This document shows positions 25,846 through 51,150 of a stretch of DNA of 64,000 bases, in pieces. Made by a program: the position numbers and the translations under genes. This DNA comes from Thioalkalivibrio sp. ALJT (GTDB lineage: Bacteria > Pseudomonadota > Gammaproteobacteria > Ectothiorhodospirales > Ectothiorhodospiraceae), in contig NZ_KB907122.1 in the NCBI RefSeq assembly GCF_000381825.1, positions 186,001-250,000 on the forward strand, read 5' to 3'. The notes below the pieces were generated by a model. The model made no database searches, had not been told where the DNA came from, and saw only the letters and a program-made list of their open reading frames with translations. Each line of letters begins with the position of its first letter. Position 1 is the first letter of the stretch.

Positions 25846-25985
25846 GCGTCTCCTCGCTCGATCAGACGTCGTACCGACCGGGTGCCCCCCAGCCTGCAAG
25901 CTGTGGAATCCTACGTCAGCCGACGGGATTTGCGAAAACCCGCAGGCGGGCCGGGCTACTCCCACCCCGCCTCACTCCGCCGCAG

Positions 25986-32366: not shown

Positions 32367-32409
32367 CGTGCTACTCCTTCTTGAGGTGAAACGAATGGCC
32401 GGGGGCGCG

Positions 32410-33252: not shown

Positions 33253-33253
33253 C

Positions 33254-34459: not shown

Positions 34460-34512
34460 TCCCGGCTCTCCCTGTAACAAAGCGGTGTACGGACCGGCGC
34501 GGGCCGGTCGGG

Positions 34513-34896
34513 TTACCAGTCGTACATGCGGATGAATTCGGGCAGCTTGGTGGTCATCTCGTCGCGCCCGAAAAAGCGGTCGGCGCGGGCCAGGCGCATC
34601 TCATCCTGGATATCCGGATCGCCGCCGAAACAGAATACCGGAAGGTTAATCTGATATTCCATCCGCAGCATACGGATCACGTCCAGCGGATCGAACACCT
34701 CGATCTCGTCCAGGTCCAGCAGGAGGAAACGGTACAGCAGCACCTCGTTCCAGGGGCCCAGCGTCTCCAGGTCAGTGACCCGGTGCAGCTGCCAGTCCGG
34801 CGGTAGCAGGGCCTGCAGGCGCGCGCTCAGCGCCTCATCCTGTGTCATCAGGATCAGGCGCTTCTCCAGACGGCGTTCGATAGTCGGTTCGGACAT
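34513..34896 (-). CDS. Atypical response-regulator receiver-like protein
   Basis: A 127-residue single-domain protein with receiver-like alternation of strands and helices: LILMTQDEALSARLQALL (strand 1), RFLLLDLDEIEVFDPLDVIRML (strand 3) and LPVFCFGG (strand 4), with RADRFFGRDE where the conserved Lys-Pro is expected. Asp61 occupies the phospho-acceptor position, but the acidic pair is reduced to one residue and the usual Thr and Lys switch residues are absent. It is therefore probably a pseudo-receiver or protein-docking module. It follows the lipoate ligase gene by 49 bp. No histidine kinase is nearby. Family assignment is from pattern only. Confidence 0.6.
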   Translation of the reverse strand: MSEPTIERRLEKRLILMTQDEALSARLQALLPPDWQLHRVTDLETLGPWNEVLLYRFLLLDLDEIEVFDPLDVIRMLRMEYQINLPVFCFGGDPDIQDEMRLARADRFFGRDEMTTKLPEFIRMYDW

Positions 34897-34945
34897 GGGT
34901 TCTCCGCTGTTATTCGATCGGTGCGCAGGACACCGGAGCCGCAGG

Positions 34946-35989
34946 TCAGGCGGTCGCAATCCCGCGATAAAGCCCGTCGACCCGGGCACTGATCTCGTCG
35001 ACTACCGCCGCGTCCAGGCGGCCATTCAGGCGCGCGCGCACCCGCAGGCGTTCCGGCGACTCCCCGATCAGCGCACTCTCGAGGACAGCCGCAACTGCGG
35101 GGTCCTCACACCAGATCCGGGCGATACGCGCGCCCTCCACATGCAGACGCAGGCGCCCGCAGGCCCCGCGGGTCTCAAAGACGTGATTGTCGCGGTTTAC
35201 CCGGATGCCATTACGGACTGCCGGCGCACCCTGACCATCGGCCAGGTCCGCCAGCTCCTCGCGCCCGGCCGCCAGCCAGCGCGCCCGCGTCTCGGCATTC
35301 GGCTGCCAGCGGCGTACCGGGGCGCCGAAGCGCCGTTCCAGCACCGCACGCAGCGTCGCGCCGATCCGCGCCGGCTCCGGAGTCTCGGGACACTGGCGAG
35401 CGCAGTCCGTCATGCCCGACTCCAGGGCCGGCAACAACCACTCGCGGTAACCCTCGCTGGGGGCGTGCACGCAGGCCAGGAAGCGCTCGACCGGAAACCG
35501 GCGCAGAAAACTTGCGCCGAAGACACACCCCTCGTCGAGGGTCGCCGCCCCGGTGCCCATGATCTTGCGCCCCTGTACCCAGACATCCTGCCCACGGGCC
35601 TCGACGCCAGCAAGCTCCAGCTCGCGCAGCACATCCATCGCGATGCCGAGCCCCAGCGCGAACAGGTGACGATGCCCGCGTGCCAGGACATGCCGGGGCT
35701 GGATCAGGAAGAAACAGGCCTGCTCGGCATCCACCCAGACCGAGCCGCCACCCAGTGGCCGCCGCACCACCGGGACGCCGGCGCGGGCACAGGCCGCGAG
35801 GTCCAGATCGGCTGCGGCGTCCTGGCTGGCACCCACGGAGATATGAGCCTCGTCGGCGTGGGCCCACAATACGCGCGGAGGCGCATCCGGTGGTGTTGTA
35901 CTCGCCAGCCCGGCATAGAGGGCGTGCAGGTCCTCGGCGGAGCAGCCCCCGACATCAATCCACTCCGGGGCAACCGTCGCTGCAACCAA
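34946..35989 (-). CDS. Lipoate-protein ligase A family protein
   Basis: It has 347 residues. The biotin/lipoate ligase fold shows VVRRPLGGGSVWVDAEQACFF (the RRxxGGG substrate loop) near residue 75 and GRKIMGTGAATLDEGCVFGASF with the catalytic Lys near 142. A long C-terminal accessory domain (about 245-347, RNGIRVNRDNHVFETRGACG) is present. It is distinct from the sLpl(AB)-type ligase at 41661, so the locus carries two lipoate ligases. Its neighbours are an unknown protein 3 bp upstream and a receiver-like protein downstream. A link to LbpA modification is suggested by proximity; ordinary scavenging for 2-oxoacid dehydrogenases is the alternative. Confidence 0.8.
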   Translation of the reverse strand: MVAATVAPEWIDVGGCSAEDLHALYAGLASTTPPDAPPRVLWAHADEAHISVGASQDAAADLDLAACARAGVPVVRRPLGGGSVWVDAEQACFFLIQPRHVLARGHRHLFALGLGIAMDVLRELELAGVEARGQDVWVQGRKIMGTGAATLDEGCVFGASFLRRFPVERFLACVHAPSEGYREWLLPALESGMTDCARQCPETPEPARIGATLRAVLERRFGAPVRRWQPNAETRARWLAAGREELADLADGQGAPAVRNGIRVNRDNHVFETRGACGRLRLHVEGARIARIWCEDPAVAAVLESALIGESPERLRVRARLNGRLDAAVVDEISARVDGLYRGIATA

Positions 35990-35992
35990 AGG

Positions 35993-36424
35993 TCAGCCCT
36001 CGCCGGAACCCTGTCCACCGCCGGCATCGCCAGACTTGTCATCGTCCGTTCCGGGCTTGTAGAAGTAGCGGAAGTAGAAATCGCTGCGCGAGAGATCCTC
36101 ATACAGCTTGGCGCGCTCCTCGACCCCCCCGCGCATGATCTCGACCATGGCCATGGCCTGTTCGCCATCGATGATATGGATGCCGCCCGTCAGCTCCTGG
36201 TCGGTATCGAGAAAATGCGCCGCGAGCTCTTCCGGCTCCTGGATATAGACCAGAAAGGACTGACACTCGGCGTCTTCCAGGTCCAGGGGCTGCATCACGA
36301 TCTTGCCCAGCCAGGCCAGGCGCGCCACCTGGTTGAACTGGTGGATATCGAGCTTCTTGCCCTTTTTGTACTTGTTCAGTTCGTTGCGGATTTCGCCAAT
36401 ATTGGCGATCTTCATCGATTTCAT
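35993..36424 (-). CDS. Unknown protein upstream of the lipoate ligase
   Basis: A 143-residue soluble protein, no signal or membrane segment and no recognised domain. A basic N-terminus (IRNELNKYKKGKKLDIHQFN) leads to mixed alpha/beta with the acidic stretch EPEELAAHFLDTDQEL and an aromatic block SRSDFYFRYFYKPG. The tail is Gly/Ser/Asp-rich (DDDKSGDAGGGQGSGEG). Two close in-frame ATGs exist (36424 and 36415); neither has a strong ribosome-binding site. It is first gene of a three-gene operon with the ligase (3-bp gap) and the receiver-like protein. Function unknown. Confidence 0.75.
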   Translation of the reverse strand: MKSMKIANIGEIRNELNKYKKGKKLDIHQFNQVARLAWLGKIVMQPLDLEDAECQSFLVYIQEPEELAAHFLDTDQELTGGIHIIDGEQAMAMVEIMRGGVEERAKLYEDLSRSDFYFRYFYKPGTDDDKSGDAGGGQGSGEG

Positions 36425-36483: not shown

Positions 36484-36508
36484 AAAAAAACCCCGGCGCA
36501 CCGGGGTT
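36484..36508 (-). terminator. Rho-independent terminator of the exported-protein gene
   Basis: AACCCCGG (36489-36496) pairs with CCGGGGTT (36501-36508). On the minus strand the stem runs straight into TTTTTTT (36484-36490). It ends transcription from the gene at 36580-37527. Confidence 0.85.
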
Positions 36509-36579
36509 CTTGAGCAGGGCACACGGTCATTCCGTGTGTCCGTGGCGCCATCCATGGCGCCCTGATCCAGCGACGGACG

Positions 36580-37527
36580 CTACCACTCGAACCCGTCGGC
36601 CTGATCTTCCTGATGGCCCGCCGCGGCACGCAGGGTCGTTTCCAGCTCACCCGGCGAACTGCGCAGCGTCATGAAGCTGTGATCCCCCATCATGCTCAGA
36701 TCCGGGAAATGCAACGCCTTGCGGAACCGCATGTGCAAGGCCTCGACATCCCCTCCACGCACCATGAGCTCGATGGGCACCGTTGCGGTATGGCGGAACT
36801 CGCCCACATCCACCGCACCAAGCTGATGCAGATCCGCTGCATCCTGTTCGGCACCATCGGCCTCGCGCACGGCCACGCCAATCACGGTGACATCCTGCCC
36901 GGGGATCTCTACACGGTAGACCTCGCTGACACCCGCAACCTGATTACCCAGATTCCTGTCCAGCTCTTCCAGCGCCGCGCTGCTCGACCCATGACTGGCC
37001 AGTTCGTAGGGCGCATCGAAGCGTTCCATGCCGAAGGTGTAGCGATAACGGTTCAGGGCGCGCTGGCTCTTGCCGTCCTCGGAGCCGAATTCACGCTCGG
37101 CACCCAGGGCATCGGCCAGGCTTTCGCTGATACCGGACACCGGCGCATCCAGACGATAGGCATGCCGGAAGTACTCAAGGTTGTTGTAGCTCACCTGCAA
37201 CTGCCCGTTGACCGCGGTCACCGCCACCCGTACCGGCGCGATATAACCACCCCGGTCCTCGGAACCCGCAACCGCCAGCAGGTCGTCGTGAGTCACCACG
37301 ATTACATGCTGCTCGTCACTGACCGGGTACTCCCCCAGAAAACGAAAATCAGCGCCCTCCAGGCGTTCCCGCACGTTGGCGACCTCAGCGGAGACATCGA
37401 CCCCCGATTCGGTGTAAGCCAGCACGAACGGACGGTATGGATCTGCCGCCACGACCTGGCTGGCCGCCAACAGGGCCACCGCCGCCATGGTGCCGGCGAC
37501 ACGTATATAGCCGCGCAAAATATGCAT
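36580..37527 (-). CDS. Exported protein of unknown function, next to the FadL-type porin
   Basis: A 315-residue protein with a signal peptide (AAVALLAASQVVAAD, cleavage near residue 28). A strong ribosome-binding site AAGGAGG fixes the ATG at 37527. The mature protein begins DPYRPFVLAY and continues with segments reminiscent of a DUF302-like alpha/beta fold (VSAEVANVRERLEGADFRFL and VIVVTHDDLLAVA). No family can be named with confidence. The C-terminal part has GDHSFMTLRSSPGELETTLR. It is encoded just downstream of the FadL-like porin, separated by a hairpin (37645-37666), and ends in a strong terminator. Probable periplasmic partner of the porin, by context only. Confidence 0.75.
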   Translation of the reverse strand: MHILRGYIRVAGTMAAVALLAASQVVAADPYRPFVLAYTESGVDVSAEVANVRERLEGADFRFLGEYPVSDEQHVIVVTHDDLLAVAGSEDRGGYIAPVRVAVTAVNGQLQVSYNNLEYFRHAYRLDAPVSGISESLADALGAEREFGSEDGKSQRALNRYRYTFGMERFDAPYELASHGSSSAALEELDRNLGNQVAGVSEVYRVEIPGQDVTVIGVAVREADGAEQDAADLHQLGAVDVGEFRHTATVPIELMVRGGDVEALHMRFRKALHFPDLSMMGDHSFMTLRSSPGELETTLRAAAGHQEDQADGFEW

Positions 37528-37644
37528 GGCATCCTCCTTTTTATATCGTTGGAATCGTCGAGCGAAACACTCGACAGGAAAAAGGCCCGGGACACGTCCC
37601 CCGACGTGTACCGAGCCCATCTGCCCTGCCCATCCCTGGCCGGA

Positions 37645-37732: not shown

Positions 37733-39022
37733 TCAGAACCGGTACGCGTACCCGACTTCAAGCTCGTACTGCTTCATCTCGATCTTCGCAGTAGTCCCCT
37801 GATCGTCGAACGGGCCCGTCACGCTGTTCGAGGGTGCATACATGGCCGCGAAGTTGAGCTCATGCTGCGAGCCGAAGCTTTTGGTGAAACCGGCAGTGAA
37901 ATGGTGCTCGATCACACCGGGTGCCAGCACATTGAACGCAACATCGCGGGAACGGATCGGGTTCTGGCCGCGGTTGTAGCCAACGCGCCAGGTCCAGTCC
38001 GTATCCGTCTCAAACTGCGCACCCAGCTTGAAGACATTGATGTCGCGCCAACCGAAACCAGGCCCATTGTCCGAACCCAGCGGTGCCTGATTGGTGCTCG
38101 GATTGGAGATCGCATCCACGTCAGAGTAGTTGATCCGGAAATAATCGGCGCTGACGGTCACGGAAGGCGTTACTTCAGCGGAGACGCCGAGGCCAACGGT
38201 CGACGGGATGTCGAAGCTGCCCCCGCCCGCAAACAGCCCGCGATAGTCGTCGAAATCACTATTCCGAATCTTGGAGCGATAGCTGCCACCCACGGTCACG
38301 CCATCGGCAACCTCGGCCTTGAAACCAATCTGGGCGCCGTAGCCCCAGGTCGCATCCGTGCCGTTATCGCTGACGTGCTGAGGACTGACGCTGGTCGGGT
38401 TACCCTGCTCGTCAAACGCGAAGGCACCAATACCCTTCGCCTTGAAACGCTGATAGCTGATGATCGGGCTCACACCGACGCTCACCTGACCATCGGCAAA
38501 CTGCTGCGCATAGGTCGGGATGATGGCCAGCTGCTCCAGATTGACGCCCGCAGCCCCGCCACAGAAAACGCCGTTGCCCGCACTCTGCGGCGGAGCCGGA
38601 CAGCCGGGATTCTCAATCGCCGGATAGTCGGTGTTGAGTCCACCGTTACCCATCAGGGCAATACCCCAGGAACGCGTCGCGTCGATCTGCTGCACGTAGC
38701 CAAACGAGGGGATAAAAAAGTTATTGCTGTCGGAATCGACCGACATCGTTCCCTTCCCGCTGTCGATGGTCAGCGACCGTTCGGGACGGAAGTAGGCAAG
38801 CGAGCCATCAATTCGCGTTTCCATGCCGGCGATACCGGCCGGGTTGATCGCCGGGGCGTAGGCATCCTGGGAGATGGCCATACCGACCCCCCCCATCCCC
38901 TTGGCCTTGGTGCCGTAGCCGTGGGCGAAATAACCATTGGTGGCGTGGGCGACGCCCGCGGAGCCCATGGCCAGGCCGACCGCGATCGTCACCAGACTGC
39001 GGCGAATGCTGCGTGCTTCCAT
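37733..39022 (-). CDS. FadL/OmpP1/TodX-family outer-membrane transporter
   Basis: It has 429 residues. A signal peptide ends at AHA near residue 27. The mature N-terminus TNGYFAHGYGTKAKGMGGVG carries the family's NG-F-x-G-x-G-x-K plug signature with the Gly/Asn hatch. Many beta strands follow, ending in the outer-membrane C-terminal Phe (ELEVGYAYRF). FadL proteins carry hydrophobic molecules across the outer membrane. In a sulfur oxidiser beside sHdr and lipoate genes, elemental sulfur or polysulfide is an attractive cargo but is only inferred. The ribosome-binding site is AAAGGAG. The upstream region contains two striking palindromes (39171-39238). Confidence 0.9.
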   Translation of the reverse strand: MEARSIRRSLVTIAVGLAMGSAGVAHATNGYFAHGYGTKAKGMGGVGMAISQDAYAPAINPAGIAGMETRIDGSLAYFRPERSLTIDSGKGTMSVDSDSNNFFIPSFGYVQQIDATRSWGIALMGNGGLNTDYPAIENPGCPAPPQSAGNGVFCGGAAGVNLEQLAIIPTYAQQFADGQVSVGVSPIISYQRFKAKGIGAFAFDEQGNPTSVSPQHVSDNGTDATWGYGAQIGFKAEVADGVTVGGSYRSKIRNSDFDDYRGLFAGGGSFDIPSTVGLGVSAEVTPSVTVSADYFRINYSDVDAISNPSTNQAPLGSDNGPGFGWRDINVFKLGAQFETDTDWTWRVGYNRGQNPIRSRDVAFNVLAPGVIEHHFTAGFTKSFGSQHELNFAAMYAPSNSVTGPFDDQGTTAKIEMKQYELEVGYAYRF

Positions 39023-39319: not shown

Positions 39320-40492
39320 TCAGGCGGTCTTTTCGTCTTCCGACTCGTCAGCGTCAAAGTCGAAGGTACCCACCTCTTCGCCCGCCATCTGACGCTTGAC
39401 GAAACCGACATCGGTCGAGTTGAGGGCAAACGGGAACGACAGGATATCGGTCGGGCTGGAATCGCCGTAGGGGCGGTTACAGGCCGAGACTTCCTCGTCC
39501 GACTTGCCGGGACAACCGGAGGTCTGGAACGGCTTGCCGGAGGCGATCAACTCGTCCACCTCGGACTGCGGCAGACCGAAGTCCACGACCTGACCGTCGG
39601 CGTTGAACTTCATGTCGTCAATACGGCCACCGGCGTAGTCGATGACGAAACGACCCAGCTGCACACGACGCCACTGGTCACGCGGGACCGGGTTCCAGTC
39701 TTCCATCAGCGAGCCCTCTTCCGGGAAGAAGGCAAACATGTGATTGTGGCCGCCCAGGTCACGGATGCGCTGACAGACCTGGAGGATCTCTTCCTCGGTC
39801 TCGCCCATGCCGCAGATCAGGTGGGCCCCGAACTTCTCCGGACCAAAGATCTCGGCGGCCCACTCAATGGCCTGCCAGTACTTGTCCCAGCTGTGCGGGC
39901 TTTCCACCGCCTTGCCACGGGTCCGCTCGAAGATCTCCGGGGTCACCGCATCCAGCGCGACCGTGAAGATATCCGCGCCCTTGTCCCGCAGAAGCTGGAG
40001 GTCATCAAAGCTCATGGTGGTCGGGTTGGACAGGATCGAAACCGGGATGTGATTGACCTCGGCGACCCAGCGCTCCAGCAGCTCGACAGTGTCAGCATCG
40101 GAGTTCGGATGCGTGATCATGGAGATGCACATGCGCTCGAACTGGCCGGCGTCGGCGTGGTTCTTCACCCGCTCGATCACCTCGTCGTACTTCGCGGTCG
40201 GCCAGTCGACGCGGATGAAGTTGCGGTCGGCGTAGTCACGCGATTCCTCGCGGTGACGCGCCAGCCCGCAGTAGGAGCAGTTGGCACGGCAGCCTTCGGG
40301 ATAGGTCACCAGAAGATTCAGACAATGCGTGCAGGCCGTGCGATGCATGGTGCCCGGTACCAGGCCCAGCGTAATCGCCGCCGCCGTGGACATCTGCACG
40401 TACTCCGGCGAACGCATGTCCGGGGTCTTGATGTGATAGTCGGGCCGGTAAAAGTTGATCGGCGCGACCATCTCCTCTGCACTTGCACTCAT
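39320..40492 (-). CDS. lipS2: Radical SAM lipoyl synthase component LipS2
   Basis: Radical SAM enzyme; with LipS1 it inserts the sulfurs of lipoate in the sHdr-linked assembly pathway. It has 390 residues from the ATG at 40492, chosen for its GGAGGA ribosome-binding site. An ATG at 40528 lacks one. The cluster motif C-x3-C-x2-C lies in EGCRANCSYCGLAR near residue 80, preceded by an extra pair in TACTHCLNLL. A C-terminal region has SGCPGKSDEEVSACNRPYG, whose cysteines could bind an auxiliary [4Fe-4S] cluster. The tail is acidic. It is last of lipS1-sLpl(AB)-lipT-lipS2. Which radical SAM gene is S1 and which S2 is taken from the order seen in other sHdr clusters. Confidence 0.8.
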   Translation of the reverse strand: MSASAEEMVAPINFYRPDYHIKTPDMRSPEYVQMSTAAAITLGLVPGTMHRTACTHCLNLLVTYPEGCRANCSYCGLARHREESRDYADRNFIRVDWPTAKYDEVIERVKNHADAGQFERMCISMITHPNSDADTVELLERWVAEVNHIPVSILSNPTTMSFDDLQLLRDKGADIFTVALDAVTPEIFERTRGKAVESPHSWDKYWQAIEWAAEIFGPEKFGAHLICGMGETEEEILQVCQRIRDLGGHNHMFAFFPEEGSLMEDWNPVPRDQWRRVQLGRFVIDYAGGRIDDMKFNADGQVVDFGLPQSEVDELIASGKPFQTSGCPGKSDEEVSACNRPYGDSSPTDILSFPFALNSTDVGFVKRQMAGEEVGTFDFDADESEDEKTA

Positions 40493-40496
40493 GAAT

Positions 40497-40502
40497 TCCT
40501 CC
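40497..40502 (-). promoter_or_regulatory. Shine-Dalgarno site fixing the lipS2 start
   Basis: GGAGGA on the minus strand, 4 bases before the ATG at 40492. It supports that start over the upstream in-frame ATG at 40528. Confidence 0.7.
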
Positions 40503-40546
40503 AGCGTCGTCTCGGGGATGCGCAGCATCCGTAGACCGGGGCCCTC

Positions 40547-41629
40547 TTACGCGACCCGGGTACCATCGTTGAAATACTCGGAAAATGCAATCCATCCGCG
40601 GCGCTGAGTGGCGTCTTCCTGCGCCCGGGGTGTCCGCCAGTGTTCGTTCAGGAAGGCCCGCCGCTCGCAGGCACGATCGAGTGCCGGACCGTACTGGTCA
40701 TGCATCTCTTCGTCGTAGTCGTCCAGGGCCTCGGGATCGCCGTCAAGGTGCCCGATCGCCGCCTCGGCCGCGGCCTCGCCGGAGACGACCGCCGCCGCAA
40801 TCCCGGCGCCGGTAATCGGATGGGTCAGGCCTGCCGCATCCCCGACAAACAGGACATCACCCAGGAACAGGGATTCACGCAGCCCCCCCACCGGTATCGC
40901 CCCCCCGGTGCGGTAGCGGATTTCTTCGCCAAGCAGCCCCTGCTCCACGAGCTGGGCATGCAGAGATTCCAGTGGCGTCTTCAGGTCGCCGGCGAGGCGC
41001 TTGTCCGCGCCCAGGCCCAGGTTGGCCCAGTCGCCCTTGGGGAACAACCAGGCATAACCACCGGGATAATCATCCGAGAGCCACACATCGGTAGCCGTGT
41101 ACGGCTTTTTCAGCGGTACCGTGTACTGACGGGTCTGTACGATCGGCAGGGCCGGCAGTCCCAGCGCCTCGGCAGTCGGCGAGTGCGGTCCATCCGCGGC
41201 GATCAATACGCGATAGGCCACCTCCTGCTCCTGTCCCTGATGCCGCATCCGGGCGATATGACGCTCGGCGTCCACACCCAGCAGCGGGGTGGACGTCACC
41301 ATGCGCGCCCCGTTGGCCTCGGCGGCACGGATGATCGCGCGATCGAATTCGCCGCGATCGACCATCAGGCCCGGGAAGTCGGAGTGCTCCACCGCCCCGG
41401 AAGGCAGAAAGCTCTGCATCGAATCGATGCGCTGCAACAACACGCCTTCCGGTTGAGCATAGGCGCCCATGGGGTTCGGGATAAACTCGGCACACTGGAC
41501 CGGTTCGCCAAAGGCCTTGTTGCGTTCAATCGCGAGCACCGACAATCCGGCGCCGGCGCACACCCGCGCGGCCGAGGCGCCGCCGGGCCCCAGCCCCACA
41601 ACCAGCACATCAACCTGTTGCGGCAACAT
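40547..41629 (-). CDS. lipT: FAD-dependent oxidoreductase LipT
   Basis: Geranylgeranyl-reductase-like flavoprotein found with sHdr-linked lipoate genes; thought to supply electrons or redox control for lipoyl formation. It has 360 residues. The FAD dinucleotide motif is VLVVGLGPGGASAARVCAGAG near residue 7. GEFDRAIIRAAEANGA is the conserved mid-domain block, and LFVGDAAGLTHPITGAGIAAA near residue 280 is the second FAD motif. The ATG at 41629 matches the family. It lies 31 bp after sLpl(AB) and 54 bp before lipS2. Confidence 0.85.
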   Translation of the reverse strand: MLPQQVDVLVVGLGPGGASAARVCAGAGLSVLAIERNKAFGEPVQCAEFIPNPMGAYAQPEGVLLQRIDSMQSFLPSGAVEHSDFPGLMVDRGEFDRAIIRAAEANGARMVTSTPLLGVDAERHIARMRHQGQEQEVAYRVLIAADGPHSPTAEALGLPALPIVQTRQYTVPLKKPYTATDVWLSDDYPGGYAWLFPKGDWANLGLGADKRLAGDLKTPLESLHAQLVEQGLLGEEIRYRTGGAIPVGGLRESLFLGDVLFVGDAAGLTHPITGAGIAAAVVSGEAAAEAAIGHLDGDPEALDDYDEEMHDQYGPALDRACERRAFLNEHWRTPRAQEDATQRRGWIAFSEYFNDGTRVA

Positions 41630-41660
41630 CAGCCGAGTCTCCGAACGGATACGAACCTGT

Positions 41661-42752
41661 TCATTCAGCCGCCTGTTCGACCTCGGCCTCGGCAAACGCA
41701 GACTGGATGGCCGCAATGATGTCATCCACACTCAATTGCAGCATCTCCACATCGCGTTCGGCAAAGAAGGCGCGGACACGATCCTCCATCTCCGCCTGCG
41801 GGGTATCGCGCAAGGCCGCCTCAAGATCGGCGATGGTACGCGCAGGCTTCACGAAGATATCCCCGGTAATCCACAACTGCTTCAGGCGCTTGCGCTCGGG
41901 GTCAAGGGCGACACCCACCCGCATCAGGCCGCCATCCGACTTGTAGATGGACTCGAACAGCGGGGCATCGGTCGCCGGACGATTGCGCTGATAGACCCAC
42001 TCGTCGCTGTCGATCTCCTTCAGGGCCTCATCGAATGCGGCCCGTTCCGCAGGCAACAGGTCGGCCACCTCGGTGCGAACACCGAACTCCTCGGCAAAGG
42101 CAGAGGCGATCGCATCCTTGATCACATCCAGCTCCGGCATCTCCACGAGCAAGGTGGCAAGGTTGACGACCCGATCTCGGGCCGACTCGATCGCCTTGTT
42201 GGAGAGCTTCTCGGCCGGGATACGCAGGATGCGAAGCATATCCTCCACATCAAATTCGATCAGCAGCGTGCCCTGGTACATGACCGAGTCGCCGTCGAAC
42301 GCCCCGCCGGTCCCCGAGATCTTGCGACCATCCACCTCGATATCGTTGCGCGGCCGGAACTGCGCATCCACGCCCAGCGCGCGCATGCCCGCCGCCGCGG
42401 CATTGCAGATGCGGGCCGCGATCTGCCCCATGTCCGCGGTGCCCAGGAAGCGCTTGTCCAGATACAGCTCCCAGCCCAGTTGGGTGGCATCAAAGTAAAT
42501 CGCGCCGCCGCCGGTAATCCGGCGCTGAATCGCGATACCGTTTTCCCTGCAGTACTCGGTATTGATCTCCTGGTCCACATTCTGGTGGAAACCCACCAGC
42601 GCACAGGGCTCGAACTGCAGGAAGCGCAGGGTGTGCGGAGAGATCCCTTCCTGGTGACACTCCAGCAGCGAACGGTTGAAGGCCATGTTCTCGGCCGCCC
42701 GACGCAAGCCGGTATCCAGAATGCGCAGGCTGTTCGAATCGCGTTCAGACAT
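41661..42752 (-). CDS. slpl(AB): sHdr-linked lipoate-protein ligase sLpl(AB)
   Basis: Ligase attaching octanoate or lipoate to LbpA, with LplA-like and LplB-like parts fused. It has 363 residues. The substrate loop is IQRRITGGGAIYFDATQLGWELY near residue 80. The catalytic Lys is in DGRKISGTGGAFDGDSVMYQGTLL near 150. The C-terminal accessory LplB-like domain runs from about 275 (LMRVGVALDPERKRLKQLWITGD). The ATG at 42752 overlaps the lipS1 stop by 8 bp (ATGTCTGA), showing translational coupling. It is second of the four lip genes. Confidence 0.9.
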   Translation of the reverse strand: MSERDSNSLRILDTGLRRAAENMAFNRSLLECHQEGISPHTLRFLQFEPCALVGFHQNVDQEINTEYCRENGIAIQRRITGGGAIYFDATQLGWELYLDKRFLGTADMGQIAARICNAAAAGMRALGVDAQFRPRNDIEVDGRKISGTGGAFDGDSVMYQGTLLIEFDVEDMLRILRIPAEKLSNKAIESARDRVVNLATLLVEMPELDVIKDAIASAFAEEFGVRTEVADLLPAERAAFDEALKEIDSDEWVYQRNRPATDAPLFESIYKSDGGLMRVGVALDPERKRLKQLWITGDIFVKPARTIADLEAALRDTPQAEMEDRVRAFFAERDVEMLQLSVDDIIAAIQSAFAEAEVEQAAE

Positions 42753-43923
42753 GGCAACCCCCTCCGGCCGCGACGTTGCCTTCGGTGACGATGCGGATGC
42801 CTCCCAGGCCCTGCCGCGCCTTGCGCTCCTGCTCCCGGCGCCGGCCCTCCTCGGCCACGATAGTATCCAGGTCCAGCTCCACGCCGCTGCCGGCGCCGGC
42901 ATCTTCCGCCATTACCTCGTCGCCCACGGCGATGGAGCAGCAGGCGGGCGTCACACGGACTTTCTTGCCCAGGCGCGCTGCCAGTTCCACCACCCCCTCG
43001 GCCGGATGCGCGATACCGGACAGCCCCGCCATCACGGCGTAGCTGTCGATCTGGCTCTTGGCGGCACCCGGTGGCCGGGCACAACCCAGCAACAGCGAGG
43101 TGTCACCGAGGCGTTCGCGCGCATCGTGGAAGAAGCGCCCAACGGCGTGCACGTCCGGCGTCTCGAACGGGCGGCTGGCCGGCGCGTAGAACGGCATCAC
43201 CACCACCAGCACCACGGCGTCGGGCAGGTGGCGGGCCAGCATCTCGAGCGCGTTCCACTCGCCGAGCAGCTTGCCGTAATGCAAGCCCACGACGATATGC
43301 GGCACCACCTTCATGTTGGTGTTTACAAGGCTTTCGAGCGTCCGCTCGAAGTCGTCCACACTGCGCCGCAGGTGATAGACCTGCGTGATCGTGTCCTGGG
43401 CACCGATCACGTCCATCATCGCGGCGTCGATACCCGCCTGCTCCATCGATACTGCGATGTTGTCATCCACCAGCGCGGTGTGCATCGCGATCCGAAAGTC
43501 CGGGAACTCGTCCTTGATGCGTCGAATCGTCGGATAGAACGGGTCGTACTCCACCTCGTTGCGATGGTTCGACCCACCGGTCAGCAACATGCCCTGGGCT
43601 CCGGACTCGATCACCTGATTGACCTGGCGCCACAGATCCTCCGGGGTGCGGACGGGGATCATCGGCTCCAGGATCTTCGCCTTGCAGTGATCGCAGGCCA
43701 GCTTGCAATCGCCACCCGTGATAGACATGGCCGGCCAGGCGCTCTTCCCGCAGTCCGCCAGCTCACTGGATTGATAGGACTTGAACGTCGGGGTGTAGAA
43801 ATGCACCGACCCGGGGTCCGCACCGTCGCGCAGGCTATGCTGGAGGTCATCAACCAGCGACGGATCGACGGGGATATCCTCGAGGGGCTCTACCCGCTGG
43901 ATTACATCATTCCAGCTTGTCAT
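42745..43923 (-). CDS. lipS1: Radical SAM lipoyl synthase component LipS1
   Basis: Radical SAM protein of the sHdr-linked lipoate pathway, 392 residues. The cluster motif C-x3-C-x2-C is in SITGGDCKLACDHCKAKIL near residue 73. The SAM-contact region is GMLLTGGSNHRNEVEYDPF. Later cysteines (LLGCARPPG near 290 and VTPACCSIAVGD near 340) are candidates for an auxiliary cluster. The C-terminus is Gly/Ala-rich. The ribosome-binding site is GGAG. It is first gene of the lip block and is separated from lbpA2 by a strong terminator, so it probably has its own promoter or depends on read-through. Confidence 0.85.
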   Translation of the reverse strand: MTSWNDVIQRVEPLEDIPVDPSLVDDLQHSLRDGADPGSVHFYTPTFKSYQSSELADCGKSAWPAMSITGGDCKLACDHCKAKILEPMIPVRTPEDLWRQVNQVIESGAQGMLLTGGSNHRNEVEYDPFYPTIRRIKDEFPDFRIAMHTALVDDNIAVSMEQAGIDAAMMDVIGAQDTITQVYHLRRSVDDFERTLESLVNTNMKVVPHIVVGLHYGKLLGEWNALEMLARHLPDAVVLVVVMPFYAPASRPFETPDVHAVGRFFHDARERLGDTSLLLGCARPPGAAKSQIDSYAVMAGLSGIAHPAEGVVELAARLGKKVRVTPACCSIAVGDEVMAEDAGAGSGVELDLDTIVAEEGRRREQERKARQGLGGIRIVTEGNVAAGGGCHV

Positions 43924-44910: not shown

Positions 44911-44918
44911 CAGTCTGA

Positions 44919-45474: not shown

Positions 45475-46386
45475 TCAGATGACCCCCTTCTCCTTCAACA
45501 GCCCCACCGAGTCGCTCACGTTTTCGTGAATACCCAGCTTGCGCGGGGACAAACCCATGGCGAGCCCGAGCAGCTGCGTGAAATACAGCACCTTGACTTC
45601 GGTCTTGATCCCGAACTCGGTCTCGGCACGGACCTGGTGCATCTCCAGACCCGAGTGGCAGGTCGGGCATTCGGTCGCGATGACCTCTGCACCGGAGTCC
45701 TCGGCCGACTGCAGCAGGTTCAGTACCAGCTGGGTCGAGGTATCGGAATCCGACAGGGTATGCGCCCCACCACAGCACGATGTCTTCAACGGGAAGTCCA
45801 CATTGACCGCACCGGCGGCGCCCAGCAGATCATCCATGAAATGCGGCTGGTAACTGGAATCCGAACCCGGGCCATTATCCTTCTCGGGGAAGATCTGGCG
45901 CGGACGCGTATACATGCAGCCGTAGTAATTGGCGATCTTGATGCCGTTCAGGCTCTTCGTCATCTTCTGCTTGATGCCCTCGGGGCCGAGTTCCTCCATC
46001 AGCCACTCGAGCAGGTGCAGGGTCCGCACGTCACCGGTGTACACCGGGTCATCGGACTTGCGCGCTAGGTCCTGGACGGTGTTCATGGCGTCCTCGGAGG
46101 TCGCCGTCTCGTATTCGGCCTTCTTGAGGTTGTGGTAGCAACCGTTGCAAGGCGCCATCACGGTGTCCATCCCCATCTGCTCGGATGCGATGGCCATGTT
46201 CCGCGCGGAAAGATACGTCTGCAGCATCGGATGAACGTTCTTCACCTCCATCGCGCCGCAGCAGTTCCAGTCCCGCAGGTTCTCCATCTCGAGCCCCAGC
46301 GCCTTCACCAGCACGCGGGTGGAGCGGTCGTACGGACCGCCAGAGCCCTCGAGCGCGCAACCCGGATAGTAAGCAACCTTAGCCAT
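45475..46386 (-). CDS. hdrB2: sHdr complex subunit HdrB2
   Basis: Heterodisulfide-reductase subunit-B-like protein of the sulfur-oxidising complex, 303 residues. It has two CCG-type cysteine blocks: YYPGCALEGSG ... NCCGAMEV ... APCNGCYHN in the N half, and YYGCMYTRPR ... SCCGGAHTL ... ECPTCHSGLE in the C half. These bind the non-cubane Fe-S clusters that carry out disulfide chemistry in HdrB. The ATG at 46386 overlaps the hdrC2 end by 8 bp. It is last gene of the hdr block and is followed by a terminator. Confidence 0.93.
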   Translation of the reverse strand: MAKVAYYPGCALEGSGGPYDRSTRVLVKALGLEMENLRDWNCCGAMEVKNVHPMLQTYLSARNMAIASEQMGMDTVMAPCNGCYHNLKKAEYETATSEDAMNTVQDLARKSDDPVYTGDVRTLHLLEWLMEELGPEGIKQKMTKSLNGIKIANYYGCMYTRPRQIFPEKDNGPGSDSSYQPHFMDDLLGAAGAVNVDFPLKTSCCGGAHTLSDSDTSTQLVLNLLQSAEDSGAEVIATECPTCHSGLEMHQVRAETEFGIKTEVKVLYFTQLLGLAMGLSPRKLGIHENVSDSVGLLKEKGVI

Positions 46387-47095
46387 GAGCGGCCTCCTTC
46401 TGTTCACGCACGTAGTTCTTCAGAACGTCCCCGGTCTTGCCCCAGGACTTGGTGCGCGGCGTATGTACCGTGTTGAAGCCCATGGTCATCAGGTGCTTCA
46501 CCGGCAGGTGTTTCATCATGCGGAAGACGAAGATCTTCATCCATTCCTGAACCAGCGGCTGGCCGGTCTTCTTGAAGAAGTTCTGCATCACCTTCGAGTC
46601 TTCGATGCGGCCGGTCTTGTAGATCTGATCGGCAAATTCTTCGTCGAAATGCGTGGACGGGGCCTTTTCGGTGATCCCTTCCTCTTCCATCCAGTGCGCC
46701 AGCGCCTTCATGACGCCCTCGGGCTTCACGTCCTTCGGGCAGATGTTGGTGCACTTGTTGCAGGACACACACTGCCAGATGATGTCCTTGTCCTTGACCA
46801 GCTCTTCCTTCATGCCCAGGCGGGTCAGGTAGATCCAGTAGCGCGGATTGAACTGCACATTCTGCGCATACATGGTGCAGGAATTGGTGCAGGACCCGCA
46901 CTGCCAGCAGCGATGAACGTTCTCGCCACCGGCAAAATTCTGGATCTTCGCCTCGAAATCGTCGTCGTAATCGCGGACGGTGCGCGGCGCGATCATGGTG
47001 TTCCAGTGACCGGACACATCCACACCGTCCACCACCAGCTCGTCGTGCTGCTGGAGGCGCTCGTCCTCGATCAGTGCCTTTTCATGTATTGCCAT
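46379..47095 (-). CDS. hdrC2: sHdr complex subunit HdrC2
   Basis: Electron-transfer subunit, 238 residues. Two ferredoxin-type [4Fe-4S] motifs are present: CWQCGSCTNSC near residue 63 and CVSCNKCTNICP near 109. Long helices follow (WMKIFVFRMMKHLPVKHLM). Ribosome-binding site CGGAGAG. It is encoded between hyp and hdrB2 and overlaps hdrB2. The pair forms the second HdrCB module of the cytoplasmic complex that oxidises sulfane sulfur. Confidence 0.93.
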   Translation of the reverse strand: MAIHEKALIEDERLQQHDELVVDGVDVSGHWNTMIAPRTVRDYDDDFEAKIQNFAGGENVHRCWQCGSCTNSCTMYAQNVQFNPRYWIYLTRLGMKEELVKDKDIIWQCVSCNKCTNICPKDVKPEGVMKALAHWMEEEGITEKAPSTHFDEEFADQIYKTGRIEDSKVMQNFFKKTGQPLVQEWMKIFVFRMMKHLPVKHLMTMGFNTVHTPRTKSWGKTGDVLKNYVREQKEAAHG

Positions 47096-47144
47096 GACGT
47101 CTCTCCGAAAACCTGTGTAGCCAGGCTCAAACTCGTTCCGTTAT

Positions 47145-47981
47145 TCAATGCAGCGACGCATCGTGTCCTTTCAGGCGACCTTCCGAGGAATCAATCCCCA
47201 GGAGTTTGACCCCGAGTTCCAGCGGGTCCTGCTTGCCCCCGAACTGGTTGTCGATCATGCCCAGACTCATGGACAGTGACCGGGCGTAATCGGAATAGGC
47301 CTGCACCCAGACCAGATCCGTTACAAACGGCAGATCGCGATAGAAGCCTTCCTCCGCCAGTGCCTCGAAGAACCACCGTCGGGCCCCTTCAACCGCACCC
47401 AGCGACTCGCCAATCGGGATGGACCGCAGGGTATCGTTGCCACGGATGAACTCGCGCAGCGCCCCTGTCGTCGTGCCCGTATCCCAGACCCAGCGCGTTG
47501 CCAGTGGTACCGCTTCGGGATCGGCGAAGTGCAGGATCTCGGCCCCGAAGTCCCAGAATCCGCGCCGGAGCTTCTTGTCCTCGCCACCCAGATCGGCGAA
47601 CACCACCAGCCGAGAATCGGGATCAGAATCCGCACGCACCAGGGCGCGCAGACCCTCAACCAACGCGCCCTGATGCTCACCCATCACCGTGCCAAGCTTC
47701 CGGCGAACCGCAAACACCAGTCCGGCGAGGGTGCGCAGGTCTTGCGCGTCCATCTCGTCACCCTTGGCCACTATGGCGGCAAACACCTCGTGCTTGGACC
47801 GCAAGGCCTCGATGAACGTCTCCAGCCCGTCGACGCCACCGGCTTCCGCGATGGCCTCGTTCAGACTGTTGAGCTTAGTCGCGAGGATCTCCTTGTCAAA
47901 GGTAACCTGCAGCGGCTCCGGGGCGAGCCCCGAAGCCGCTTCGTCGCTGACGACCTCAGCCGGCTTTCTGAACCAGCGCAT
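47145..47981 (-). CDS. Conserved sHdr-cluster protein (hyp)
   Basis: It has 278 residues, always found between hdrA and hdrC2 in sHdr clusters, function not established. The ATG at 47981 (MRWFRKPAEVVSDEAA) lies inside the end of hdrA (26-bp overlap) with GGCGGAT before it. No cysteine-rich motif is visible, so it is unlikely to hold clusters. The middle has LNSLNEAIAEAGGVDGLETFIEAL and [25 protein letters not shown], predicted helical. The C half contains FWDFGAEILHFADPEAVPLATRWVW. The first half is reminiscent of DUF1641-type helical proteins. It may be structural or target LbpA; unproven. Confidence 0.85.
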   Translation of the reverse strand: MRWFRKPAEVVSDEAASGLAPEPLQVTFDKEILATKLNSLNEAIAEAGGVDGLETFIEALRSKHEVFAAIVAKGDEMDAQDLRTLAGLVFAVRRKLGTVMGEHQGALVEGLRALVRADSDPDSRLVVFADLGGEDKKLRRGFWDFGAEILHFADPEAVPLATRWVWDTGTTTGALREFIRGNDTLRSIPIGESLGAVEGARRWFFEALAEEGFYRDLPFVTDLVWVQAYSDYARSLSMSLGMIDNQFGGKQDPLELGVKLLGIDSSEGRLKGHDASLH

Positions 47982-49008
47982 GCAGATCCGCCACCGCGCG
48001 CCCACCGGCCGCAGCGCCCTGGGCGATCGAATCGTCGATCGTTTCCGGGCCATAGGCCGCACCGCAGGAGTAAATCCCCTTACGCGTGGTGCCACAGGTA
48101 TTGGTGTACTGCTCAGCCTTTTCAATGAAGCCGTGCTTTTCGAGACCGACACCGAAGACCTGGGAGAGCTCCGGATTGTCGGCATTCGGATCCATGCCGA
48201 TGGCGTGCACGACGATATCGAACGGAATGATGATCGGACGCTTGACCAGGGTATCTTCACCCTTAACCAGCAGGCGACCGTCACCGGAGGAGGTGACTTC
48301 CGCAATACGGGCCTTCACAAACTTGGTTTTGAACTCTTCCTGGGACTTCCAGTAGAACTTGTCTTCGTACAGGCCGAAGGTACGGATGTCCATGTAGTAG
48401 ATGAATACGTCCGTTTCCGGCGACAGTTCCTTGATCTCCATAGCCAGATTGGCAGAGACGGTGCAGCAGATCTTGGAGCACCACTCGCGGCCGATCTGAC
48501 GGTCACGCGAACCGACGCAAAGCAGGATGCATACCCGCTCCGGCACGCGGCCGTCGGACGGACAAGCGATATTCCCGGAGGCGACCATCTGCTCCATCTG
48601 GGTCGTCGTCAGGACGTCTTCGTAGGTACCGAAGCCCCATTCCGGCTTGTTGATGGAGTCAAAATGGGTGAACCCGGTGGCAAGCACCACGGCACCGGCC
48701 TGGACCGATTCGCCGTTGGTCAGCGTGGCGGTGAAGTTACCGGCTTCGCCTTCCAGCTTCTCAACCTTGGCGCCCTTGTGCACGGTGGCGCTGGAATCAT
48801 CTTCCACACGCTTCACCATGCGGCCGATGGCATCCTTCGCCCACTCGCCGGACGGGACCAACTTGGCATAGCCCGACAGGATCGGAGCGCCACCCAGGAC
48901 ATCTTCCTTCTCGACCATCACGGCCTTGAAGCCGGCCGAGGTGACATTGGCGGCGGCGGCCAGACCGGCCGGCCCACCACCCACTACTAGAACGGTATCT
49001 TGCTGCAT
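47956..49008 (-). CDS. hdrA: sHdr complex flavoprotein subunit HdrA
   Basis: FAD-binding subunit of the sHdr complex, 350 residues. It is much shorter than methanogen HdrA and lacks its ferredoxin inserts, as is typical of the sulfur-oxidising type. The FAD motif is VLVVGGGPAGLAAAANVTSAG near residue 7. The cluster-binding region has CILLCVGSRDRQIGREWCSKICC near residue 160. A second nucleotide motif near the end reads YSCGAAYGPETIDDSIAQGAAAG. Its start overlaps the hdrB1 stop (TGATG), giving translational coupling, and hyp starts within its end. Confidence 0.93.
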   Translation of the reverse strand: MQQDTVLVVGGGPAGLAAAANVTSAGFKAVMVEKEDVLGGAPILSGYAKLVPSGEWAKDAIGRMVKRVEDDSSATVHKGAKVEKLEGEAGNFTATLTNGESVQAGAVVLATGFTHFDSINKPEWGFGTYEDVLTTTQMEQMVASGNIACPSDGRVPERVCILLCVGSRDRQIGREWCSKICCTVSANLAMEIKELSPETDVFIYYMDIRTFGLYEDKFYWKSQEEFKTKFVKARIAEVTSSGDGRLLVKGEDTLVKRPIIIPFDIVVHAIGMDPNADNPELSQVFGVGLEKHGFIEKAEQYTNTCGTTRKGIYSCGAAYGPETIDDSIAQGAAAGGRAVADLHALVQKAG

Positions 49009-50414
49009 CAGACCTTGCCCCCGTAAGCGAGTTCAGGATTGTAGAGGTATTCGATATTCCCGGCCTCGACCTCCTTCAGGTATTCCTGGAAGGTCTTCTT
49101 GGCCTCGGACCAGGACATGCCCATCTTTTCGACCAGGTCTTCGCACGGGGATGCGTGCCACTGCAGCTGCACGATCTTGAACGGGTCCGCGCCGCAGGCC
49201 AGGGCCGCGAACTGGACTTCCGCCATGATCGGGATCTGGAAGTTCTGGTTGTGGGCCTTGCCGATCCACTGGTTCTTGTCCATCGTGGTGACACAGCCGG
49301 TGTCGTTGGCCAGCATCACGTCGGCGTTGGCTTCCTCGCGGGCCACGCGGATCTTGCGATCCATCGTGAACGAGCGGGTGAACTCGCGCTCGGAGATGAT
49401 GTGGCGGAAGCCGAAGCCGCAGCAGTCGTACCACGTCGAATAGTCGATCACCTGGGCACCCAGAGCCTGGGCGGTGGAGGTGATGATCGCGGTACGGTTA
49501 CCACCCAGCACGGACGGATCGTAGACCGCGTCCTCGTGCACCATCTTGTAATAATGGCAGGCCACGTGCGCGGTGGTGCGGATATTGGAGACGTCGATGG
49601 TCTGCAGTTCGGATGCGATGCGGTTGCGCATCACGTGCACCCACTCGGAGTAGTGGATGATCTCTTCCGGGATGACCAGCTTGCCGTCAACCAGGCGCCC
49701 CAGTTTGCCGAGGATCTTGGTGACCTTCTCGCGCAGCTCGGCGGACTCGACCAGGTACTTGCGGATCTCCTTGTAGTTACCGAAGGAGGTGCCGCAGTGC
49801 ACGAGCGGGTAGAAGTGACCGAGCTCGTGACCGTGCTGCTTGCCGGAGACGTAGGCCTGATGGAAGTTCCGGAGGAACACTGCCGCCAACGACTCGACGT
49901 TCCCGATACCGGAACCGTGGTAGTTCCACGCGGTGCAGGAAGTCTGGTCCGTCTCGTCGAGGTAGTCCTTGCCCGGTTCGAAACCGAACTTGTTCATGAA
50001 CCACAGCAGCGAGGTCGGGTAGCCCGGGATGTTGCCGCACTGGCCGCAGGACTTGTGGTGCCACAGCTGCTTGGTCGGGACCTTTTTGTCCCAGCCGAAC
50101 AGCGTCTGCACCATCTGTGGCTCGTGTTCATCGTTAATGCGGTGAACGATGATCTGACCATCCTTCTCGAGCTCGTACATATGCTCACGGATGTCATCCA
50201 TACGGTCGCCGAGGTCGATGGTGCGGCGGTCAACGTGCTTGCGCACCCAGTCGGTCGCCTTGACGGCGTCTTCCTTCGACAAATCGGTCGACTGGAAGAA
50301 CGAACCGTGACCGGCGACGCCCTGACCGTCGGTGTTGTGGAAACCGGGCTTCATGGTACCGGCACCGGCGCCTTCACCATTCTGGTTGTGATTGCCTGGG
50401 GTCTGTTCACTCAT
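49008..50414 (-). CDS. hdrB1: sHdr complex subunit HdrB1
   Basis: The larger HdrB-like subunit, 468 residues with a roughly 110-residue N-terminal extension typical of sHdrB1. Cysteine blocks are KSCGQCGNIPG, DQTSCTAWNYHG, VHCGTSFG, HVACHYYK, DCCGFGFRH and NDTGCVTTMD. CCG is retained in the second half, whereas the first block is atypical. The ribosome-binding site AGGAGAAG fixes the start. It follows hdrC1 by 43 bp and overlaps hdrA. With HdrC1 it forms one of the two HdrCB modules. Confidence 0.93.
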   Translation of the reverse strand: MSEQTPGNHNQNGEGAGAGTMKPGFHNTDGQGVAGHGSFFQSTDLSKEDAVKATDWVRKHVDRRTIDLGDRMDDIREHMYELEKDGQIIVHRINDEHEPQMVQTLFGWDKKVPTKQLWHHKSCGQCGNIPGYPTSLLWFMNKFGFEPGKDYLDETDQTSCTAWNYHGSGIGNVESLAAVFLRNFHQAYVSGKQHGHELGHFYPLVHCGTSFGNYKEIRKYLVESAELREKVTKILGKLGRLVDGKLVIPEEIIHYSEWVHVMRNRIASELQTIDVSNIRTTAHVACHYYKMVHEDAVYDPSVLGGNRTAIITSTAQALGAQVIDYSTWYDCCGFGFRHIISEREFTRSFTMDRKIRVAREEANADVMLANDTGCVTTMDKNQWIGKAHNQNFQIPIMAEVQFAALACGADPFKIVQLQWHASPCEDLVEKMGMSWSEAKKTFQEYLKEVEAGNIEYLYNPELAYGGKV

Positions 50415-50457
50415 AACGCTTCTCCTGATGTCTTGGAACCGGAATGCGGCGAGCGAC

Positions 50458-51150
50458 TTACTCGTCGTCTTCCTCTTCCTGCTCCTCGAGCCAGTCTTCG
50501 TAGTCCTCGCGCTTCTCGTCGATGAAGTCTTCGATTACGTCGAAGAGATTCTCGTCCATAAGCTCGAGGGACTTCAGGACACCGGTCATTTCCCAGATGG
50601 TGTACATCTCGACCGAGGTCTTCAGCGACACTTCCCAGGCGGTCTCGACCGTCTGCAGCGTCTTCACCGGAATCGCCTTGCGCAGGATGCGCAGATCGCC
50701 TTCTACCTTCTGGATGTTGGGGCCCCAGTCAGGGAAGTGGTCAGGCTGGATCATGTCAGGCGACAGCTGGTTACCTGTCGTAATCAGCTTGAGCATGACG
50801 CGGCCAAACGGACGCAGCACGTCCTTGGCGGACTGCATTTCATGCTTGATGGCCACCTCGCGCATGATCGCAACCAGGCCACCGGGGGAATTCTTGAACG
50901 GGCAGCGCGCGGCACAGGTCATGCACTGGGCGCAGGCCCAGATCTTTTCCTGCATCGCGTCATAGATCTGCTCGACGTTTTCGGTCCAGAGCAGCTGCAC
51001 GATCTCGCGCGGCGAGTAGTCGTAGAACTGGGCGGACGGGCACGTGGCCGTGCAGATCCCGCAGTTCAAGCAGCCATTGAGCTCGTGGTCGTAGCGAAAA
51101 TCTCCGCGAATATCGTCGAAGATTTGCTGCATCTCAGCGTATGTCGCCAT
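50458..51150 (-). CDS. hdrC1: sHdr complex subunit HdrC1
   Basis: Iron-sulfur electron-transfer subunit, 230 residues. Two [4Fe-4S] motifs are present: CLNCGICTATCP near residue 27 and CAQCMTCAARCP near 73. A helical C-terminus ends in a strongly acidic tail (DEKREDYEDWLEEQEEEDDE). It is first of hdrC1-hdrB1-hdrA-hyp-hdrC2-hdrB2. A long hairpin (51265-51304) separates it from tusA, 171 bp upstream. Confidence 0.93.
   Translation of the reverse strand: MATYAEMQQIFDDIRGDFRYDHELNGCLNCGICTATCPSAQFYDYSPREIVQLLWTENVEQIYDAMQEKIWACAQCMTCAARCPFKNSPGGLVAIMREVAIKHEMQSAKDVLRPFGRVMLKLITTGNQLSPDMIQPDHFPDWGPNIQKVEGDLRILRKAIPVKTLQTVETAWEVSLKTSVEMYTIWEMTGVLKSLELMDENLFDVIEDFIDEKREDYEDWLEEQEEEDDE

Follow-up and report, generated by a model that had tools for sequence, protein, structure and literature searches.

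What do three adjacent genes, unk, lig3, and rec, contribute to the sHdr-LbpA system beside which they are encoded in Thioalkalivibrio sp. ALJT? They lie in a 64,000-nucleotide stretch (hereafter, the window; NZ_KB907122.1, our contig C2, positions 186001–250000) of the 2.66 Mb genome of this strain (G000). A first-pass annotation, made from the letters of the window, had interpreted the trio as a dedicated, possibly regulated, lipoylation branch that could modify one of the two diverged LbpA proteins or recycle lipoate. Based on gene anatomy, co-occurrence across genomes, conserved catalytic residues, and a predicted receiver fold, we see an even chance that the trio comprises two separate pieces: unk and rec as a two-protein, phosphorylation-independent partner of sHdr, and lig3 as an accessory ligase directed to LbpA. 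The three genes are as follows.

35993..36424, minus strand: unk, open reading frame (ORF) with an ATG start, 143 aa, function unassigned, first gene of the trio
34946..35989, minus strand: lig3, ORF with a TTG start, 347 aa, divergent LplA-like lipoate/octanoate-protein ligase
34513..34896, minus strand: rec, ORF with an ATG start, 127 aa, stand-alone pseudo-receiver

The gaps between unk and lig3 (35990–35992, 3 bp) and between lig3 and rec (34897–34945, 49 bp) are those reported at first pass; the start of rec was set at the ATG at 34896, the mechanical ORF extending to 34989. Purifying selection acts on each of the three frames (ratio of non-synonymous to synonymous substitution rates, dN/dS: 0.045–0.162, nine pairs each; lig3: 0.060–0.162), showing that the trio represents more than chance ORFs.

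To place the trio in Gammaproteobacteria, we used 369 evenly drawn genomes, scoring the best candidates in each (at most 11 for rec and unk, at most five for sHdrA). We found rec in 21 genomes and unk in the identical 21, representing 12 families. With sHdrA called at ≥500 bits (next best match: 176 bits), 61 of the 83 matched genomes were dropped as distant HdrA-like, and 22 genomes were sHdrA-positive, of which 20 also encode unk and rec. The pair is present in 20/22 sHdrA-positive genomes versus 1/347 sHdrA-negative genomes (Fisher test: p = 9e-30, kinship ignored), the sole genome with unk and rec that lacks sHdrA (G428) being 75% complete. Co-occurrence across genomes was the check proposed by the first-pass annotation, and its concern that the trio might occur mainly in genomes without sHdr is not borne out, given that 20 of the 21 genomes with the pair are sHdrA-positive. 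Two genera show differences in the same direction as the sHdr link: in g151, G240 has all three genes and G351 and G446 have none, and in g160, G249 has all and G359 has none. Ten of the 20 genomes have sHdrA and unk 9.6–38 kb apart; the distance is 204 kb for G113 and 756 kb for G449, and the other eight genomes have the two genes on different contigs, some of them short. The association of trio and sHdr is thus seen also at 204 and 756 kb. Recurrence in sulfur-oxidizing Gammaproteobacteria, mostly where sHdr is present, suggests that the three genes are probably overlooked parts of this pathway.

The unk–rec gap measures 1.03–1.27 kb in 16/21 genomes, and in each of these it contains lig3 (14 by fetched DNA: G113, G120, G183, G214, G220, G240, G244, G249, G265, G328, G333, G355, G372, and G449; G000 and G020 by family-level searches). 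At the fetched loci, lig3-profile matches of 69–109 bits were taken as sLpl by position, and the rec of G333 was found in the genome search, not drawn at the fetched locus. In G428, lig3 is just ahead of rec and unk is on a separate contig; lig3 is absent from the remaining four genomes (G007, G284, G300, and G388). This sample contradicts an alternative reading of lig3 as an insertion confined to few lineages. A pattern-limited scan of named records, with the rec alignment as query and the only survey reaching beyond Gammaproteobacteria, yielded 48 rec loci (Thioalkalivibrio, Ectothiorhodospira, Acidiferrobacter-type, Acidihalobacter, a Competibacteraceae metagenome-assembled genome (MAG), and other MAGs). 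The rec of G000 is 72–93% identical to that of most Thioalkalivibrio loci among them. These loci include unk in 45 cases (the misses being L075 and L079, at contig ends, and L086) and lig3 in 28; the 20 without lig3 include Ectothiorhodospira loci. At 19 of these 20, unk and rec are spaced by −4 to 10 bp, which points to coupled synthesis of the two proteins (the twentieth is L086, with no unk). LipS1 was found in 44 of the 48 genomes, and those without it (L069, L073, L075, and L098) are all MAG records.

A family survey of 47 genomes (lig3 cut-off: 237 bits) identified unk in 35, lig3 in 31, rec in 36, LipS1 in 40, and an LbpA/GcvH-type protein in 46. Within its genus g2 (n = 10), rec occurs in seven genomes, unk in six, and lig3 in none. 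The unk–rec pair directly follows lipS2 in G001, G004, and G008–G010, and both LbpAs occur without lig3 in G001, G004, and G007–G010. In the Ectothiorhodospira lacustris-type genome G002 (L048), rec follows lipS2 although unk is missing, and we saw no other clear instance of the pair being split.

A single regulated lipoylation unit, in which unk and the receiver control lig3 and lig3 modifies one LbpA, accords with the conserved gene order (lig3 in the middle in 16/21 class genomes and 28/48 loci). However, unk and rec persist without lig3 (4/21 genomes; 19 loci with an adjacent pair), and lig3 persists without unk and rec in G014, so that a single unit is unsupported and, in our view, unlikely. 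Since the pair and lig3 occur apart, the receiver is also unlikely to be mainly a regulator of lig3. Of the dedicated, regulated branch at sHdr envisaged at first pass, the affiliation of the trio with sHdr genomes stands (20/21), whereas its unity does not. Dedication of the ligase to one LbpA is weakened as well: in vitro, the sLpl of Thioalkalivibrio K90mix loads both LbpA1 and LbpA2 with free octanoate or lipoate (PMC6067878, available portion), so two LbpAs do not by themselves require lig3. Given this activity and the g2 and G007 genomes listed above that carry both LbpAs and no lig3, we did not uphold an essential role of lig3 for one of the two LbpAs.

Three genomes provide natural experiments. 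G007 has sHdrA, both LbpAs, unk, and rec, with no LipS1, close sLpl, or lig3. G013 has shdrB2, both LbpAs, and the whole trio, with no LipS1 or close sLpl. In the complete genome G014, a lone LbpA, lig3, and P36580 (the gene upstream of unk in the window) are intact; both LipS1 and a close sLpl are absent, unk has lost most of its length between flanking DNA that is preserved, rec has no match, and the only Lpl matches are lig3 and a C10-type Lpl (a paralogue described below). Values of dN/dS between G014 and G013 are 0.094 for lig3 and 0.089 for LbpA. No sHdr gene occurs in the 18 kb G014 locus, sHdrA not having been searched genome-wide in G013 or G014. Hence, these patterns suggest that unk and rec follow sHdr, whereas lig3 can follow LbpA. 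We had considered G013 as proof of LbpA lipoylation by lig3, a reading weakened by G007: with no close sLpl and no lig3 in that genome, neither G013 nor G014 points to lig3 in particular.

The description of lig3 given by the first-pass annotation, with an RRxxGGG loop, a catalytic Lys, a long C-terminal domain, and a sequence distinct from sLpl(AB), proved accurate. The protein matches PF21948 (LplA-B_cat: 70.2 bits, cut-off 27, residues 35–211), as do 13/13 members of its alignment at E ≤0.1, and carries RRPLGGG at 76–82 and K142; the ~135 C-terminal residues, checked for likeness to an LplB-type accessory domain, have no Pfam match above cut-off. Among 42 distinct copies (cut at 200 bits; L075 and L158 share motif strings and are possibly one genome counted twice), R77, G80–G82, V84, D135, and K142 are invariant, and position 76 is Arg in 33 and Gln in nine. 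Immediately ahead of D135, 32 copies carry Gln (QD in the window protein) and two carry Asn (G214 and G328); W137 is found in 41, and TGGG is replaced by LGGG in 39. By comparison, the ND motif is present in every sLpl and C10-type row, in 6/7 rows of a fourth Lpl type (T4), and in the 1vqz row. Because the Asn of this motif is mostly lost, the substrate of lig3 may have changed. The copies of G214 and G328 (L145 and L153; family f121) retain both TGGG and ND, implying that the motif changes arose within the lig3 group or reverted; these two are possible intermediates between ordinary Lpl and the lig3 clade.

Like sLpl(AB) (TK90_0642 and relatives; PMC6067878 and PMC10332631, available portions), lig3 belongs to the LplA/B superfamily, has the RRxxGGG loop and Lys, and shares the island; both are without the GGG-loop His. 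Unlike sLpl(AB), to which it is 25% identical (41 bits), lig3 forms a separate clade, mostly has no ND Asn, carries W137, and shows no C-terminal profile match (hhalign against the sLpl C-terminal part: E 0.41 over 10 columns, not significant). In a tree of 14 lig3 rows (none from the class-sample lig3), sLpl, C10-type, T4, and two PDB ligases, the lig3 rows form a single clade (100/100); a 100/99 branch sets this clade and the C10-type rows apart from sLpl, T4, and the PDB ligases, and the lig3 stem is long at 1.93 changes per column. The C10-type Lpl, a further paralogue that the first-pass annotation did not have (G000:C10), is also closest by profile (hhalign: E 6e-45, 288 columns; C-terminus: 57 columns, probability 88, E 3e-6); however, it lies outside the sHdr island and keeps ND, and the long stem belongs to lig3. 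The catalytic domain aligns by profile with Thermoplasma acidophilum LplA (2ars, E 3e-18), although lig3 has neither the His of AVxHD nor that of the following strand found in 2ars and other solved Lpl.

Having the C10-type Lpl, found away from sHdr, as nearest paralogue would fit a lig3 that serves GcvH or the 2-oxoacid dehydrogenase E2, or salvages lipoate for central metabolism, with its island position incidental. We consider this improbable: the trio goes with sHdr also in genomes where the two are far apart, and all ten g2 genomes, which have no lig3, contain a GcvH-like match (37–44% identity). A role as something other than a protein ligase is similarly doubtful. Here, lig3 would make or sense acyl-AMP, or handle another acyl group, in a signaling trio with unk and rec; the replaced ND Asn (40/42), Trp137 (41/42), LGGG (39/42), and the length of the stem fit this idea, but R77, the GGG loop, and Lys are intact in 42/42, the f121 copies keep TGGG and ND, and sLpl is active in vitro even though it has no usual GGG-loop His (AIYFD; PMC6067878, available portion).

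The rec protein has a predicted (beta-alpha)5 receiver fold. Its AlphaFold2 (AF2) model (predicted local distance difference test (pLDDT): 91.5) aligns with the PmrA receiver 9of8_A (VIA Z 13.2, root-mean-square deviation (rmsd) 2.8, 114 residues), and the top 15 structural rows are all receivers (Z 12.8–13.2, rmsd 2.4–2.9, 111–114 residues). A profile match to CtrA (E 6e-4) was found, and PF00072 was matched by 0/29 rec members at E ≤0.1. When the CtrA alignment is used to locate T and DD, and the position after strand 5 to locate K, Asp61 is invariant in 62/62 distinct sequences, the Thr position is Gly91 in 62/62, position 111 is Arg in 57/62 and Lys in 1/62, and position 110 is Lys in 0/62. 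This agrees with the first-pass observation of a receiver that retains Asp61 and is without the Lys/Thr switch; in addition, the first acidic pocket residue is lost (position 19 acidic: 0/62; position 20 Asp: 55/62). A canonical receiver active site consists of DD, D, T, and K, and a pseudo-receiver is defined as being without at least one of the five (PMC12632262, available portion); by this definition, rec is a pseudo-receiver, having the fold without the full DD/T/K set. Compared to the pseudo-receiver (PsR) domains covered by that portion, rec differs in being stand-alone, keeping D, being linked to sulfur oxidation, having no PF00072 match, and having no output domain. A normally phosphorylated receiver (CheY/Spo0F-like), served by an unlinked kinase or a small phosphodonor, would account for D61 (62/62), D20 (55/62), and the canonical fold of the model; given position 19, Gly91, and the near absence of Lys at 110 and 111, we regard it as quite unlikely.

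The unk protein has no Pfam match above cut-off (PF22538 and PF09015 are far under it) and no NCBIfam match. Structure prediction, which had been suggested at first pass, gave an AF2 model with a pLDDT of 83 and a predicted template-modeling score of 0.68 and no clear fold match in the PDB: the best Foldseek E was 0.49, and none of the 1000 chains aligned with VIA reached Z ≥5 (best: 4.5). The VIA alignment covered the list produced by Foldseek, and we do not claim a new fold. Nineteen positions are invariant across 59 distinct unk sequences. A lipoyl domain was rejected (no GCV_H or Biotin_lipoyl match), and a similarity to the Gloeobacter proteins 9k9w (E 0.004) was dropped as chance (~5–6 bits per stretch).

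Taken together, the trio would contribute two functionally distinct parts to the sHdr island of Gammaproteobacteria. We infer that the tightly linked unk and rec probably form a complex acting on the sHdr-LbpA machinery, in which the pseudo-receiver would be a protein-binding module working without an Asp-phosphorylation switch and unk its dedicated partner, concerned with assembly, docking, or activity control. As a presumably catalytically competent, diverged ligase, lig3 would use ATP to activate octanoate or lipoate in free form, with LbpA the most likely acceptor of the acyl group; our preferred reading of its role is a route that supplements sLpl(AB)-LipS1/S2 or scavenges, perhaps for imported or recycled acyl groups and perhaps fed by the FadL-like LipY channel. 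More tentatively, and with somewhat greater doubt than belief, unk-rec may be an undescribed, near-universal gammaproteobacterial accessory complex that docks on or gates sHdr-LbpA and does not act in transcription, and lig3 a second, separately evolved LbpA ligase that can outlive sHdr and sLpl-LipS1/S2.

Several observations weigh against these proposals. For the pair, the sHdrA-positive genomes G006 and G260 have neither unk nor rec (G006 encodes LbpA in the family survey), G002 has rec without unk, and LbpA occurs without unk or rec in G003, G005, G045, and G046 (99, 99, 99, and 98% complete) and in the less complete or fragmented G033, G038, and G042, none of these seven having been searched for sHdrA. 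For the ligase, lig3 is dispensable: 0/10 g2 genomes have a member of its clade, at least six of them keep both LbpAs, and, as G007 shows, LbpA can be served by the C10-type Lpl or some other route instead. In addition, most copies have no Asn of ND, and the grouping of lig3 with C10 involves long branches, as the tree warning indicates.

Pure hitch-hiking, with the trio only a neighbor of a horizontally moving sHdr island, would accord with the short sHdrA–unk distances in 10/20 genomes, eight more having the two genes on different contigs, but is very unlikely given the pair kept at 204 and 756 kb, the identical unk and rec genomes, and purifying selection.

The oxidation of LbpA-bound sulfur by sHdr may need further proteins. 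The trio and the sHdr-LbpA system share genomes and often one locus, and the three genes are probably additional, undescribed parts of this known system. In the portions of the literature searched, none of the three is given as an sHdr-LbpA component and no title listed concerns them, TK90_0648 (lig3 by gene counting) possibly being mentioned in PMC6067878. Tracking sHdr across 12 gammaproteobacterial families, unk and rec are direct candidates for knockout and pull-down. A pseudo-receiver tied to a metabolic enzyme and with no output domain would offer a concrete case for the question of how such domains act (PMC12632262, available portion). Likewise, lig3 lends itself to comparing acceptor and substrate specificity among natural cases, being kept without unk and rec (G014), absent (Ectothiorhodospira loci and G007), or present without a close sLpl (G013). 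The K90mix sLpl is described as having no octanoyltransferase activity (PMC6067878 and PMC10332631, available portions).

The minus-strand gene order of the island is shdr-lbpA-dsrE-lbpA-lipS1-slpl(AB)-lipT-lipS2-lipY-P36580, with unk, lig3, and rec downstream.

36486..36511, minus strand: possible terminator read from the sequence, an 11-bp hairpin plus T-run between the P36580 gene and unk
36580..37533, minus strand: P36580, 317 aa, signal-peptide-like N-terminus by eye, frequently upstream of unk
37733..39022, minus strand: lipY-like FadL/TodX outer-membrane protein (PF03349, 73 bits), a frequent upstream neighbor
39320..43923, minus strand: lipS2, lipT, slpl(AB), and lipS1, gene order as in PMC10332631 (available portion)
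44028–44465, minus strand: lbpA, GCV_H Pfam match
44503–44940, minus strand: dsrE, DsrE Pfam match
44919–45362, minus strand: second lbpA, GCV_H Pfam match
45475..51150, minus strand: shdrB2, C2, hyp, A, B1, and C1, by domains plus gene order

The shdr names rest on CCG and Fer4 domains for 45475–46407 and 46379–47095 and otherwise on the order in PMC6382920 (available portion); the name lipY is from PMC10332631 (available portion). LipS1 of the window scores 198.8 bits against NF053742, under the 230-bit cut-off of that model. The hairpin folds at −17.4 kcal/mol (z −1.73; 11/200 shuffles were equally or more stable) and is absent from the terminator scan output. With a T-run ahead of unk, it suggests that the trio possibly has its own transcript in this genome. 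P36580 matches no Pfam family above cut-off; many loci have it ahead of unk, often alongside the FadL-like lipY, the two being a possible acyl-uptake pair.

On the other side of rec, a glycine betaine ABC transporter operon (31497–34480, minus strand) lies between rec and a 105-aa gene, an arrangement confined to one subset of Thioalkalivibrio. The 105-aa protein (30835–31152, plus strand, no Pfam match) is encoded opposite to rec and repeatedly adjoins it in Thioalkalivibrio, Ectothiorhodospira, Acidihalobacter, and Acidiferrobacter-type loci; by this recurrence, it is probably another island member. A block of cbbQ, a cbbO-like VWA protein, a histone-deacetylase-like protein, and an aldo/keto reductase (24676–30615, minus strand) recurs, whole or partial, downstream of rec in many families, including where the trio is remote from sHdr.

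The C10-type Lpl of the host genome (L110 3544–4671), outside the sHdr island, is also found in Ectothiorhodospira-type genomes, and in G000 and G012 it adjoins an ORF resembling a TonB receptor by eye. The T4 proteins (L113–L117) are 515–549 aa long; in L113, L114, L115, and L117, they are beside an ORF resembling a U32-peptidase (UbiV-like) by eye, and T4_G046 (L116) has lost the catalytic Lys.

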